This document shows, piece after piece, positions 1 through 37,550 of a stretch of DNA of 37,550 nucleotides; the stretch's first letter is position 1; every line of letters begins with the position of its first letter. The notes under the pieces were generated by a model. That model was not told the DNA's origin and ran no database searches. It saw only the letters and a list, made by a program, of their open reading frames with translations. The DNA lies in IMG/VR virus record IMGVR_UViG_3300030098_001230, positions 1-37,550 of that record. One strand, written 5' to 3'. Source of the stretch: a virus. The translations under genes and the position numbers were made by a program.

Positions 1-182
1 CGGGGGGCTATGAAACAAGAACAACCAAGCTAAGAATGAACCAAACCTCTAAAGTTTACAATCTTGGTTTTGAGGTATTCCAAAGGGATTTTACTTGGTA
101 TGTGAAATTCAATGGAGTTACGAAAGAGTTTGAAGGGGATACGATGGTCATTAGTCGGGATGGTTGGAACTGGGAAAAATAG
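1..182 (+). CDS. 3' part of junction-spanning small protein (continues from 37349)
   Basis: An open frame (first whole codon at base 3) runs with no start codon to a TAG at 180-182. Its residues (GGYETRTTKLRMNQ..., then YNLGFEVFQRDFTWYV) continue in frame the protein cut off at 37550: the last base of the window (a) plus the first two (cg) form an ACG threonine codon. Joined, the protein has 127 residues. I recall the conserved patch T-GG-x-T-x-TT-K-x-RMNQ from small uncharacterised phage proteins, but I know no function. The final G of the stop codon is also the first paired base of the hammerhead ribozyme that follows. Confidence 0.8.
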   Translation, partial: GGYETRTTKLRMNQTSKVYNLGFEVFQRDFTWYVKFNGVTKEFEGDTMVISRDGWNWEK

Positions 183-238
183 GCTTACTGATGAGGGTTT
201 TATATCCGAAACACCCAATTTATTTGGGTGTCTAAGTC
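182..238 (+). ncRNA. Hammerhead ribozyme 1 (stem I open type)
   Basis: The full hammerhead core is visible. Stem I pairs GGCTTA (182-187) with TAAGTC (233-238), with one G-U pair. The core CTGATGA is at 188-194. Stem II pairs GGGT (195-198) with ATCC (204-207). GAA plus the A of A15.1 are at 208-211. Stem III pairs ACACCCAA (211-218) with TTGGGTGT (224-231) around a TTTAT loop. The site before cleavage is GTC, so cutting falls between 232 and 233. The 5' and 3' ends lie in stem I (type I topology). Cleavage leaves a 26-base leader holding the AAAGGAA ribosome site of the gene at 259. Stem I touches the stop codon of the upstream gene, so a terminating ribosome could block folding. Confidence 0.9.
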
Positions 239-258
239 AAAAATAGAAAGGAATTAAA

Positions 259-483
259 ATGAATCCATATTTAAACACATATTATAAGTATAAGGTGGGG
301 ATGGAAATAGAACTTAATCATGAATTTGATTATAACAGGGCTATTATTACAGAATTAGATTGGCATCAGGAAAAAGACGAACCCCTTTTAATTGTTGCCA
401 TAATTCATAACGATAAACCAAAAACAGCCCCAAAGGATGAACGATGGATTTATTTTAACCAAGTAAGGAGAATTATAAAATGA
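259..483 (+). CDS. Small hypothetical protein behind ribozyme 1
   Basis: A 74-residue unknown protein rich in aromatic and charged residues, with no membrane segment or recognisable motif. The start is supported by AAAGGAA at 247-253. The upstream hammerhead would give this gene a short 5'-hydroxyl leader of 26 bases. It overlaps the next gene (ATGA at 480-483), which suggests translational coupling. Confidence 0.75.
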   Translation: MNPYLNTYYKYKVGMEIELNHEFDYNRAIITELDWHQEKDEPLLIVAIIHNDKPKTAPKDERWIYFNQVRRIIK

Positions 484-5636: not shown

Positions 5637-7324
5637 CATTTGAGGAGAATGGTATATATGTAAAAGGCACATCAGGACAGGAGAAAACAATTTGTCCTAA
5701 ATGCTCACACACTAGAAAAAATAAATCAGATAAATGCTTGTCTGTGAATATAGACGATGGCGTGTGGCATTGTCATCATTGTAATTGGGAGGGATCGCTA
5801 GATTGGAAAAAAATAGTTAAGGAACTTAACTCTCAAAAACCAATAGAAAAACCAAAGCCACCTAAAACAGAATTACCTGAAAATGTCTATCAATGGTTTG
5901 AGGATAGATGTATAACTAGGGCAGTAGTAGACTCAGAAAAAATAGGCTATGAAAATAGGTGGATACAATTTCCCTTTTATAAAAATGGTGAAGTGGTTAA
6001 TATAAAGTCTAGGACAGCAGATAAGAATTTTAGGCAATCAAAGAATGCAGAGAAATGTTTTTATAGATTTGATTCCATGTTGGGAATGGAAACTATTATT
6101 ATAACTGAGGGAGAAATGGATGCATTATCTCTGGTGCAATCTGGGTTTATGAATGTGGTATCTGTTCCTGATGGTGCGCCATCCGTAGGATCAAAACCAA
6201 GTAATTTAAAGTTCAGTTATTTAATGTCAGCAGAAGAACATTTAATGAGCGCAAATACTGTCATATTATGCACAGATTCTGATGGTGCAGGTAAACACCT
6301 AAGAGAAGAATTATCTAGGCGTATAGGTAGGGAAAAATGCTTTAGAGTGGTATATCCTGATGGATGTAAGGATATGAATGATGTTCTTATAAAGCATGGA
6401 GAAGATAAAGTACAGGATATAGTGAGTAATGCCCACCCATATCCGATTGATGGGGTTGTAGCGATTAGTGATATTGAAGATGATGCTATTGATTTATTAT
6501 TAAAGCCACAACACAAAGGTTTATCTACAGGGTGGAATGCAGTTGATCCACATTATTTAGTTAGTCCATCTGAGGTTACTGTAATTACAGGGGTACCTAA
6601 TATGGGTAAATCAGAATGGATGGATGCTTTAATGATAAATATGGTGCAAGAATATGGTTGGAAGTTTGGTATATTCTCAGCAGAAAATTTTCCTGTGGAA
6701 CACCACTTGTTGAAACTTGTTGGTAAATTTGCTGGGAAAGCATTTTGGGGGGAAGATAAATTAAATGAATCTACAGCTAGAAGTTCAATGAAGATATTAA
6801 ATGACCATATAAAATTTATAGGAACACAAGAGGACTCTGTAACAATAGAATCTATCATGGAACAAGCTAAGATATTAAACTATAGATTTGGATTAAATGG
6901 ATTAGTGATTGACCCTTGGAATACATTAGAGCATAAATTTGGAGATGGTGAAAATGAGACTTTATATGTATCTAGGGTATTGGCTCAGTTGAGTGCTTTT
7001 GCCAAAATGAATGAAATGCATATATGGGTAGTTGCCCACCCAAGGAAAATGGAGAATGATGTCAATAGGAGACCTGCTGTACCATCACCTTATGATATAA
7101 GTGGTTCAGCTAATTGGTTTAATAAATGTGATAATGCGATTACTGTTCATAGACATAAAACTGAGAATGATGACTATGCGGGAATCCATGTACATAAAAT
7201 TAGATTTCAATACAAGAATGGAAAGCCAAATCAAGGCAGACCCGCAAAGTTGAAGTATAATTTAGCTAATGGAAAATATTATGAATACATTGAAGAAAGA
7301 TTTAAGGAAGATTTATTTAAATAG
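5633..7324 (+). CDS. Primase-helicase (T7 gp4-like)
   Basis: A 563-residue replication enzyme that should prime and unwind DNA at the fork. A zinc-binding domain (C21-x2-C24 and C47-x2-C50) is followed by a TOPRIM domain (ITEGEMDAL near 157-165 with Glu159; TDSDGAG near 214-220). A RecA-like DnaB/gp4 helicase domain follows, with Walker A GVPNMGKS (320-327) and Walker B LVIDPWN. The length matches phage primase-helicases. It overlaps the initiator upstream by 4 bases and contains palindrome copy 3. No phage DNA polymerase is seen in the window, so host polymerase probably does synthesis. Confidence 0.93.
   Translation: MTFEENGIYVKGTSGQEKTICPKCSHTRKNKSDKCLSVNIDDGVWHCHHCNWEGSLDWKKIVKELNSQKPIEKPKPPKTELPENVYQWFEDRCITRAVVDSEKIGYENRWIQFPFYKNGEVVNIKSRTADKNFRQSKNAEKCFYRFDSMLGMETIIITEGEMDALSLVQSGFMNVVSVPDGAPSVGSKPSNLKFSYLMSAEEHLMSANTVILCTDSDGAGKHLREELSRRIGREKCFRVVYPDGCKDMNDVLIKHGEDKVQDIVSNAHPYPIDGVVAISDIEDDAIDLLLKPQHKGLSTGWNAVDPHYLVSPSEVTVITGVPNMGKSEWMDALMINMVQEYGWKFGIFSAENFPVEHHLLKLVGKFAGKAFWGEDKLNESTARSSMKILNDHIKFIGTQEDSVTIESIMEQAKILNYRFGLNGLVIDPWNTLEHKFGDGENETLYVSRVLAQLSAFAKMNEMHIWVVAHPRKMENDVNRRPAVPSPYDISGSANWFNKCDNAITVHRHKTENDDYAGIHVHKIRFQYKNGKPNQGRPAKLKYNLANGKYYEYIEERFKEDLFK
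5816..5830. promoter_or_regulatory. Palindrome GTTAAG-GAA-CTTAAC (family copy 3)
   Basis: It lies inside the primase-helicase gene (codons for residues about 62-66), so here it is compatible with coding. The spacer GAA is the same as in copies 4 (9580) and 5 (19744). Confidence 0.6.
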
Positions 7325-35183: not shown

Positions 35184-35359
35184 ATAAATTCCTTTATTTA
35201 TGGTATATTCTACGGACTTTCTTTCTTCTATACAAGGGAATTAGTGGACTTTCTTTTCAAATTTTTTTTATATATCCCTGCAAGTGTTTGTTATTAAATA
35301 ATTTATGGGGAATGCGTAATCACACCAAAGTATAAATTTACATACGCCCTAGGGTACTT

Positions 35360-35433
35360 GTCAAGTAAAAAATAAAAATAATTTGCAATTTAATATCGGA
35401 TCTACGATAAAGTCAAGTAAAAAATAAAAATAA
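35360..35433 (+). repeat. 22-base direct repeat pair in control region
   Basis: Exact copies at 35360-35381 and 35412-35433, 52 bases apart. Each is GTCAAG followed by an A-rich stretch. They may be initiator or regulator sites. Confidence 0.6.
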
Positions 35434-35442
35434 ATATTTCTC

Positions 35443-35472
35443 TTGACATTGTGAGGGGTGCTGTTGTATAGA
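35443..35472 (+). promoter_or_regulatory. Candidate promoter TTGACA...TATAGA
   Basis: TTGACA at 35443-35448 and TATAGA at 35467-35472, 18 bases apart. No gene follows for nearly 500 bases, so the product would have a long leader or a noncoding RNA. Confidence 0.35.
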
Positions 35473-35851
35473 GTTTAAATTCCATCAATTAAAAATAATC
35501 CTTGACAATCAGTAAAATAGTCTAATTAAATCTTTAACCTATTAAACGAATTTACTTGTAATTGTCCTTGTTTAGTGTTATGGGTAATGTTTAGTAGTGC
35601 CTTACTAGGATTTAGGCGAAATATGACCAATTCCACCCTCAATAAAAGCCCAAAACATAGCCTTAAACGCCATAAAAAGAGTTTTAAATATCCAAGTTCA
35701 ATCATCTGAATAACAGCCATAAACAGCCATTTAGACACCTTGAAAGACTTTTTGACAATAGCAAGTAAAATCTTTAACTAAATGCATTTTTCTAATGAAA
35801 AATAGAATAATTTTAGATAAAAATTATCCTCTATATATAAGGTGTATCAAA

Positions 35852-35866
35852 GTTAAGCACCTTAAC
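35852..35866. promoter_or_regulatory. Palindrome GTTAAG-CAC-CTTAAC (family copy 6)
   Basis: It ends 12 bases before the -35 box of the best early promoter (35879). This is the strongest positional hint that the palindrome is a regulator-binding site. Confidence 0.65.
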
Positions 35867-35878
35867 TGTGAAAATTAC

Positions 35879-35908
35879 TTGACATTAACCAATTAGACCC
35901 ATTAAGAT
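35879..35908 (+). promoter_or_regulatory. Early promoter TTGACA...TAAGAT
   Basis: TTGACA at 35879-35884 and TAAGAT at 35903-35908, with 18-base spacing. The start would fall about 50 bases before the ATG at 35967. A small hairpin GCCC-ATTA-GGGC (35935-35946) lies just before the AAAGGAG ribosome site. Likely drives the + strand early arm. Confidence 0.55.
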
Positions 35909-35966
35909 TAGACAGATTAAATATTAAAATAACAGCCCATTAGGGCATAAAGGAGAATAAAAGCAC

Positions 35967-36557
35967 ATGAAGAAAGAAAACAAAATAACCAAGCAAACAT
36001 ATAAGAAACCTACCAAAAAGGAAATAGACGAAGCCCTTCAGATAGGTTTGATGCTAGGAGAAAAAACAAAGTCAGTTGTTGATGTAATCAAAAGAGATTT
36101 ACATCACAAAGATGAAAACAATCAAACCCAATTAACTAGAAAATTTGACAATATCCTAAATGGAAATGATGTCGAATTGATAGAGAAAACAAAAGGGTTT
36201 ATCAAAAAACAAGTTCAGACCCTAGTAAAAGAAAAGGCGGTACAGTTAGCCGTTTTAGGAGATGAAAGAAAAGACGCTCAAGTAACTCTAAAAAAGGTTA
36301 CTAAGTCAATGATAGAAAACGTAGACGGGCTTTACGCTGATAATTTCAACGAAAAGGATTTCGGCTCATTTCGGGTTGTTAAGATGCACAAAAAGACTGA
36401 AGACCTTACAATTCATGAAGAACTCATGAAGTGGATGCGCTCTCAGAAGAAAAACGGATTATGGACAGGCTCAAAAGGGCAAGAAAAAGACCCCGAATTT
36501 TACGACGTTGCAACAGTTATTAATCTTTGCAAGGATATTCAAGAGGGGAAAATATAA
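35967..36557 (+). CDS. First early-arm gene, hypothetical
   Basis: A 196-residue charged, mostly helical protein (MKKENKITKQTYKKPTKKEIDEALQIGLMLGEK...) directly downstream of the strongest early promoter, with AAAGGAG as ribosome site. The second half has a KMHKKTEDLTIHEELMKWMRSQKK region. I recognise no family. As the first early gene it could reprogramme the host or act as a regulator. Its stop (36555-36557) is one base before the second hammerhead ribozyme. Confidence 0.7.
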   Translation: MKKENKITKQTYKKPTKKEIDEALQIGLMLGEKTKSVVDVIKRDLHHKDENNQTQLTRKFDNILNGNDVELIEKTKGFIKKQVQTLVKEKAVQLAVLGDERKDAQVTLKKVTKSMIENVDGLYADNFNEKDFGSFRVVKMHKKTEDLTIHEELMKWMRSQKKNGLWTGSKGQEKDPEFYDVATVINLCKDIQEGKI

Positions 36558-36558
36558 A

Positions 36559-36612
36559 CCTACTGATGAGGGGCGAGTTCAAATTCTCGCCCCGAAACGC
36601 AAAGCGTCTAGG
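36559..36612 (+). ncRNA. Hammerhead ribozyme 2 (stem I open type)
   Basis: Stem I pairs CCTA (36559-36562) with TAGG (36609-36612). The core CTGATGA is at 36563-36569. Stem II is 8 bp (GGGGCGAG 36570-36577 with CTCGCCCC 36586-36593) around TTCAAATT. GAA plus the A of A15.1 are at 36594-36597. Stem III is ACGC with GCGT (36597-36600 with 36604-36607), with an AAA loop. The site is GTC, so cleavage falls between 36608 and 36609. The 21-base leader left holds GGAGG for the gene at 36630. Stem I is only 4 bp, with extra contacts not visible. Confidence 0.88.
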
Positions 36613-36629
36613 GATAATTTGGAGGAATT

Positions 36630-37097
36630 ATGAAACAAACATACAAAACAATTATAAAAGATGTTGACCAAAACGACAGTAATTATTGTACTGTTTTGGC
36701 TGTAGCCATCGCCATGGATCTACCATTTAAAAAAGTTCAAAAGGGCTTTTTTGAATTAGGAAGAAAACGAAACAGGGGCTTTTACTTTTTTAGAAATTTT
36801 AAAGATGTAGCCGAAAAATTTAACATCAAATATGAAATCATCGCAGAGCATCAATTCGAAGTTAAAGAAAGATATTTTACATCTCTAACGGCTAATAATT
36901 GCACTGAATACCTAGACCTAGACACTTACATTTTAGGCTGTAGAGGGCATGTATTTGCCGTTAAAAATGGCAAAGTGGAAGATTGGACTAAGGGAAGAAA
37001 ACACCAAGTTAAACAGGTATATAGAATTATTAACAAAAAACCCAAAGTTAAGGCACTTAACTCTTGGGATAGTGGATTTGATTTATCAAAATATTAA
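36630..37097 (+). CDS. Papain-like cysteine-protease fold protein
   Basis: A 155-residue protein with the pattern of small phage C39/papain-like proteins: DQNDSNYCTVLAVAIAMDL (Cys20 with a following helix), GCRGHVFAV (His107) and KVEDW (Asp118), giving a plausible Cys-His-Asp triad. A target cannot be named. It is translated from the RNA piece made by the two hammerhead ribozymes. The ribosome site is GGAGG at 36621-36625. Palindrome copy 7 lies near the 3' end. Confidence 0.65.
   Translation: MKQTYKTIIKDVDQNDSNYCTVLAVAIAMDLPFKKVQKGFFELGRKRNRGFYFFRNFKDVAEKFNIKYEIIAEHQFEVKERYFTSLTANNCTEYLDLDTYILGCRGHVFAVKNGKVEDWTKGRKHQVKQVYRIINKKPKVKALNSWDSGFDLSKY
37047..37061. promoter_or_regulatory. Palindrome GTTAAG-GCA-CTTAAC (family copy 7)
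   Basis: It lies inside the 3' part of the papain-like gene, 36 bases before the end of the coding region. The flanks AAA...TCT match those of copy 5. Confidence 0.6.
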
Positions 37098-37116
37098 AAA
37101 AGGAGAATAAAACAAA

Positions 37117-37332
37117 ATGAAGAAACCAACAATATACGAAATTAAACGATTAACAAAAGATAAGGCTCCTTATTTTTTTAGTAGGGACACCATGAAATTT
37201 TTTGGTCAAACGCTAAAAGATTTTAAGGTTGAAAGCTTTAAAGATGGAAGATTTAAAATAACTGCAAAAAGTTGGGGAGGAAATGAAACAGTTAGATATT
37301 TCAACCCCAAAACAAACGATTTAGAATATTAA
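37117..37332 (+). CDS. Small conserved phage protein
   Basis: A 71-residue protein (PTIYEIKRLTKDKAPYFFSRDTMKFFGQTLKDFKV..., then TVRYFNPKTNDLEY). I recall this pattern (YFFSR-x-T-x-x-FFGQT-x-x-DF-x-V) from short phage and bacterial proteins of unknown function. AAAGGAG is the ribosome site. Confidence 0.7.
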   Translation: MKKPTIYEIKRLTKDKAPYFFSRDTMKFFGQTLKDFKVESFKDGRFKITAKSWGGNETVRYFNPKTNDLEY

Positions 37333-37348
37333 AAGAGGAGAAAACAAA

Positions 37349-37550
37349 ATGAAAACTATAATAAGGAAAAATAGTGTCTTTGGTAATCATCAATATATAG
37401 AGATTAATGACCATAGACCCGAACCCGTTAAAATTGGAACTCACAAAACAGTAGTGTTCACAGAGCCAAATTTAAAGGGAGAAGATACAACAAAAGTTGT
37501 ATATCATAAAACGGCTGTTGTTAGTTTTAATGAGCATACTATTTTATTAA
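37349..37550 (+). CDS. 5' part of junction-spanning small protein (continues to 182)
   Basis: It starts at ATG 37349 after AGAGGAG and is open to the end of the window with one base over. Joined to bases 1-182 it gives a 127-residue protein. The halves match without a stop, and the joined YHKTAVVSFNEHTILL plus TGGYETRTTKLRMNQ reads like a single conserved domain. It sits on the RNA piece between the two hammerhead sites. Confidence 0.8.
   Translation, partial: MKTIIRKNSVFGNHQYIEINDHRPEPVKIGTHKTVVFTEPNLKGEDTTKVVYHKTAVVSFNEHTILL

Follow-up and report, generated by a model that had tools for sequence, protein, structure and literature searches.

Clustered hammerhead ribozymes of prophages have been described as flanking genes or short blocks of genes, and cleavage of such phage arrays has been demonstrated both in vitro and in E. 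coli (Perreault et al. 2011, PMC3088659). The authors of that study proposed that long phage transcripts are processed to operon- or gene-length mRNAs, and they sought spliced or circular products and detected none. A 2017 review still regarded the role of hammerheads in prokaryotes and phages as an open question (PMC6155905). Here we analyse a window of 37,550 nucleotides, positions 1 to 37,550 of IMG/VR virus record IMGVR_UViG_3300030098_001230, in which a first-pass annotation recognised two hammerheads flanking a block of genes and considered such paired punctuation worth describing. The main idea of paired phage hammerheads is not new, having been stated, tested and discussed in the 2011 paper. 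What seems new here is that phage hammerheads sit on the stop codon of the preceding gene, that they differ in this from terminators, and that the second hammerhead of the window forms a conserved island between differing genes. The text of PMC3088659 makes no mention of stop codons; in the literature searched, mostly without subscription papers, we met no survey of stop-codon geometry, no contrast with terminators and no such island, and priority is not assured.

Judged from its sequence, each of the two window elements is a complete type I hammerhead with cleavage predicted at C17. The cores had been annotated as complete at two sites on the + strand, and we find the coordinates and parts to be as claimed (Table 1). 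Set against the consensus of Perreault et al. 2011 (PMC3088659), both elements carry all of the required core (C3 U4 G5 A6 N7 G8 A9, G12 A13 A14, the A15.1-U16.1 pair and H17) together with the core-adjacent base pairs in stems I, II and III. The link to stop codons is likewise as annotated, with the first hammerhead abutting the upstream stop and the second building it into stem I, and in both the stop lies at −6 from C3 (stop end/C3: 36557/36563 and 182/188). Cleavage would leave leaders of 21 nt (first) and 26 nt (second), each with a ribosome site, again in agreement with the annotation. When the sequences are tightly cut the minimum-energy fold is the hammerhead for both, and in an 86-nt context the minimum-energy fold of the first lacks stems I and III.

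Table 1. Positions of the hammerheads, their parts and the neighbouring genes in the window, and of the tRNA-like minihelices in other viral contigs
Feature	Position	Strand	Remarks
196-aa gene before first hammerhead	35967..36557	+	Order of 196-aa then 155-aa gene kept in distant relatives
First type I hammerhead with upstream stop	36555..36612	+	Predicted cut 36608/36609; covariance model match
First hammerhead, stop TAA	36555-36557	+	End of 196-aa gene
First hammerhead, stem I	CCTA 36559-36562 / TAGG 36609-36612	+	4 bp
First hammerhead, core CTGATGA	36563-36569	+	GAA 36594-36596
First hammerhead, stems II and III		+	8 bp and 4 bp; C17 = 36608
Leader after first cut	36609..36629	+	21 nt; ribosome site TTGGAGGAA; ATG at 36630
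155-aa protein, first gene of block	36630..37097	+	phrog_3754, function unknown
71-aa protein, second gene of block	37117..37332	+	DUF7447, phrog_4655
Junction-spanning gene, 5' part	37349..37550	+	127 aa; L007 homologue matches phrog_554
Junction-spanning gene, 3' part	1..182	+	Stop TAG 180-182
Second type I hammerhead	180..238	+	Predicted cut 232/233; covariance model match
Second hammerhead, stop TAG	180-182	+	Stop of junction-spanning gene, with its G as outermost stem I base
Second hammerhead, stem I	GGCTTA 182-187 / TAAGTC 233-238	+	6 bp, one G-U
Second hammerhead, core CTGATGA	188-194	+	GAA 208-210
Second hammerhead, stems II and III		+	4 bp and 8 bp; C17 = 232
Leader after second cut	233..258	+	26 nt; ribosome site AAAGGAA; ATG at 259
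74-aa gene	259..483	+	Heads RNA downstream of second cut
Minihelices	L008 ~6363-6408; L009 ~6053-6097; L010 2409-2452 and ~2522-2563; L357-L379		

We trained a covariance model (R1) on 60 viral hammerheads from outside this clade. Its score for the second hammerhead is 58.5 bits, with an E value of 4.6e-11, and for the first 31.2 bits, with an E value of 1.3e-4; across the whole genome it finds no hammerhead beyond these two. Our pattern finder, which demands CUGANGA, stems I, II and III, GAA-A and U-H17, returned 0 hits in 1.5 Mb of Markov sequence having the dinucleotides of the window. The covariance check against Rfam that had been recommended with the annotation came out in part: a search of the window at the gathering threshold gave no ribozyme, and RAGATH-1-hammerhead (RF03152) matches both elements weakly below its cut-off of 56.3 bits, at 33.1 and 19.9 bits. 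A nucleotide search of phage records gave no match. Intact cores and stems, an independent model match, conservation and geometry can be read from the sequences themselves.

The RNA between the two predicted cuts is, as annotated, 1,174 nt long, runs across the window ends and holds three genes. We take the window ends to join because the spanning frame (127 aa) is open through the join and matches an uninterrupted 128-aa gene of a close relative, L007, minus one codon at the join. The 155-aa product had been labelled papain-like, a name given to it by no database family; its invariant residues are C20, H107 and D118, its structure model is poor (pLDDT 62) and its fold matches are weak (YopQ, E 0.02-0.03; a peptidase domain, E 1.3). 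In this region neither sigma-70-like sites nor terminators exceed their frequency in shuffles, and we therefore infer the transcription unit from gene layout only. Upstream of the ribozyme operon, between divergent genes, lies an AT-rich 780-bp stretch (window 35184-35966) without long ORFs that contains TTGACA-like boxes and repeated GTCAAGTAAAAAATAAAAATAA and is perhaps the main promoter or origin region.

The proposed check of related phages identified two close relatives, L006 and L007, that retain both hammerheads. The cores are intact in 6/6 hammerheads of this clade, the sole core change being at N7 (T to A), and loop length also varies among them. In the first ribozyme of L007, stem II carries a compensatory C-G to G-C double change and a second possible compensatory pair that depends on the placement of a one-base gap, covariation that, coming from three close sequences, is too thin for significance alone. 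L007 has the same three genes between the cuts, with a predicted release of 1,177 nt; in L006 the third gene is swapped for two others (42 and 159 aa), and the predicted release is 1,420 nt. An 82-bp segment that runs from the stop TAG to the following ATG (window 180-261) shares 91% identity with L006 6347-6428, and the genes on both sides of the segment differ between the two phages. The differing upstream genes both end in the same TAG, at −6 from C3. That this island is conserved while the genes around it are swapped suggests selection on the entire segment of stop, ribozyme, leader and start as one unit.

Farther relatives are more varied. In L010, the gene pair that flanks the window's first ribozyme encloses a hammerhead-like element (1323-1389; 27.2 bits, E 0.0012 with model R1) with the core CCGAAGA, adjoining a stop (at −7); the 155-aa protein homologue of L010 is ~40% identical. 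The change of U4 to C is expected to weaken cleavage, and the element offers a naturally occurring test of a variant core. L008, L009 and L013 have a terminator-like hairpin and no ribozyme at the first site, and L347 and L349 a plain GC-rich hairpin and no ribozyme; with ordinary hairpins in these five relatives, cleavage is therefore not essential there. Disrupted cores in homologous phages had been named with the annotation as evidence against it; of the relatives, L006 and L007 have intact cores, L010 has the U4C core and the five others have hairpins. A further intergenic hairpin, GCCGACTCANNNAGTCGGCTTTTTGGGTG, occurs in L008 (4938), L009 (4951), L010 (3059) and L013 (5603) and is conserved beyond the need of a plain terminator.

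We surveyed viral hammerheads by pattern scanning, three times in IMG/VR and once in GTDB genomes. The collected loci contain at least 337 different type I hammerheads, and at least 100 loci have two or more, on the same strand in 100/100 of the matches listed. Spacing within the arrays has a median of 586 nt (interquartile 413-929; 72 independent arrays among the matches listed), and this range of 0.4-0.9 kb is about the size of a gene. The window pair belongs with such arrays, having two same-strand hammerheads at gene boundaries 1,174 nt apart, within a few kb of phage DNA. A similar finder gave at least 15 type III and at least one type II hammerheads in the same loci, counts that are no measure of abundance because the loci were collected through type I. 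In L117, L293 and L322, near-identical hammerheads occur 2-3 times per phage with sequence differing on both sides.

Removal of near copies left 231 hammerheads, 219 with an upstream frame of at least 50 codons (among the matches listed). The stop ends within −14 to +16 of C3 in 180 of these 219 listed (82%), with peaks of 63 at −7 or −6, 31 at −1, 23 at +3 and 17 at +13. The +3 stop is the UGA of the core, so that this peak is built into the hammerhead; the +13 stop lies in loop II; and some stops at −1 are forced, the scan patterns fixing three stem I pairs. Hammerheads that match none of the scan patterns still have −7/−6 as the dominant position (13/36, among the matches listed). Of the 231 hammerheads among the matches listed, 214 have A(−7) and 180 have G(−6), and loop II bases are also conserved in viral hammerheads. 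Terminator hairpins in the same contigs start mostly 15-30 nt past a stop, and none of 37 starts within −3 to +1 of it, versus 37% of hammerheads (both among the matches listed). Distances from the cut to the next start codon peak at 22-30 nt and have a median of 29 nt (among the matches listed). The window hammerheads are typical of this geometry, with the stop at −6 in both and leaders of 21 and 26 nt.

We also observed ~40-nt tRNA-like minihelices, comprising only an acceptor stem and T arm (GGGYRAATGGTT...GGTTCGATTCC...CCCA), between phage genes. They were found by scan in 23 viral contigs, where the typical distance is 6-14 nt from the preceding stop and 17-28 nt to the following start, and both stems vary compensatorily. 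ARAGORN and Rfam did not recognise them, with only sub-threshold matches to the tmRNA end and tRNA-Sec. They are possibly RNase P punctuation, parallel to the hammerheads. The window itself has a complete tRNA-Tyr (GTA) at 1313-1392, bounded by an HNH gene with its stop at 1287 and by a gene that starts with the ATG at 1413; at ~20 nt before the start codon, its spacing is the same as that of the ribozyme and minihelix elements.

Taken together, these comparisons lead us to conclude that the hammerheads are probably self-processing intercistronic punctuation of polycistronic phage mRNA. The ribozyme, bearing the stop of the preceding gene at its 5' edge, would fold once that gene is transcribed, and the self-cut would leave 21-26 nt ahead of the next gene. 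Still carrying its stop, the upstream mRNA would then finish in the hairpins of stems II and III and bear a 2',3'-cyclic phosphate, and the downstream mRNA would start with a 5'-OH and a short unstructured leader containing the ribosome site. Two such cuts would give a 1.17-kb three-gene mRNA whose stability and translation would be decoupled from the genes on either side. With the stop at the 5' edge in 82% and the start at a median of 29 nt past the cut (matches listed), the cut lies between cistrons, and the upstream mRNA therefore keeps its stop; since the cut comes after the stop codon, no non-stop mRNA arises. The intact cores of the clade, the R1 matches, the L010 variant, the gene-size one-strand arrays and the cleavage of phage arrays in 2011 (PMC3088659) all argue for punctuation, and the loss of the first ribozyme's 4-bp stems I and III in the 86-nt fold and the hairpins of five relatives argue against it. 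The annotated ribozyme-processed operon is retained as to paired ribozymes that flank a gene block and are kept in relatives, an idea that was already in print in 2011. We infer cleavage in the cell, separate stability and a benefit to the phage.

A ribosome ending the upstream gene might instead sit on the stop in stem I and block folding, with cleavage only when that gene is not being finished and the stop-codon overlap acting as a sensor of translation. We regard this as possible but not favoured. It fits the 180/219 listed cases whose stop meets or falls within the ribozyme's 5' portion, their peaks at −7/−6 and the conserved A(−7)G(−6), and the 15-30 nt between stops and terminator hairpins of the same contigs (among the matches listed) is as expected if the ribosome disturbs nearby structure. 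However, the stop would be placed identically if the element must begin right after it, saving space and leaving the upstream mRNA its stop; conservation of A(−7) and G(−6) may serve folding; and the core UGA, with UAA in some stems and loops, catches any entering frame and so sharpens the peaks at +3, −1 and +13. Known footprint sizes suggest that stem I would be covered by a ribosome standing on the stop, and translation may therefore hold back the cut. It is a tentative, rather doubtful extension that phage type I hammerheads are stop-bearing modules in which cleavage competes with finishing ribosomes, the same boundaries using hammerhead, hairpin and terminator interchangeably; if that were true, phage mRNA would be cut according to translation.

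It is unlikely that the ribozyme segment is a shared linker for gene exchange by recombination, with catalysis secondary. The 82-bp segment kept between differing genes would suit such a linker, as would the 157 near-identical viral hammerhead pairs that differ on both sides versus 137 that are the same on both (among the matches listed), a difference scored by shared 10-mers, which misses diverged homologues. Function alone, however, would also preserve a ribozyme during gene turnover, and compensatory stem changes preserve a structure for which a mere linker has no need. That the elements are decayed or inactive relics persisting as 3' hairpins that protect the upstream mRNA is improbable: plain or terminator-like hairpins at the same boundary in relatives and the expected weakening by U4C in L010 point that way, but in the window, L006 and L007 neither ribozyme lacks any required core base, N7 alone being changed. 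Least credible is a circular or spliced RNA made by joining the ends of the released RNA after two cuts. Cleavage would yield the right end groups, and a full 6-bp hybrid stem I is possible in ~38% of neighbouring array pairs (among the matches listed); here, however, the hybrid stem I for a circle would have only 4 bp, including a G-U, and the hybrid for splicing 2 bp. The arrays (matches listed) are as compatible with splicing as with circle formation, and their copies resemble one another about as closely in stems II and III as in stem I, the pattern that duplication would produce. With no circle-specific signal over these listed arrays, and no circular or spliced products detected by Perreault et al. 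(PMC3088659), the suggested circularisation is not upheld. Assignment to ribozyme-flanked circular RNAs (retrozyme or viroid-like) was also considered and rejected, the stem I halves not matching.

Among described systems, the window most resembles the clustered prophage hammerheads of Clostridium scindens, Azorhizobium caulinodans and the Agrobacterium tumefaciens ardA locus, in which several lie on one strand and flank genes; it differs from the 2011 arrays in its phage and its genes (PMC3088659). Halovirus HF1/HF2 shares an early-gene hammerhead placed shortly ahead of a start codon, but that hammerhead, 13 nt upstream of the helicase gene, is single, has a variant core and belongs to an archaeal virus (PMC3088659). 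Like RAGATH-1-hammerhead RF03152, the second ribozyme has UUACUGAUGAG..CGAAAC..GUCUAAG aligning over the full model, whereas that family's extra upstream hairpin is not clearly formed in the window copies, which fall below the 56.3-bit cut-off. If cleavage sets mRNA dosage in phage operons, the hammerhead would do without an enzyme what host RNases do in processing, and would be a ready-made component for building operons. Phage T7 has RNase III sites between its early genes, and there too a polycistronic early mRNA is cut to gene-size mRNAs with 3' hairpins. In T7 the cut is made by a host protein enzyme and leaves a 5'-phosphate, whereas the window hammerheads would cleave themselves and leave a 5'-OH.
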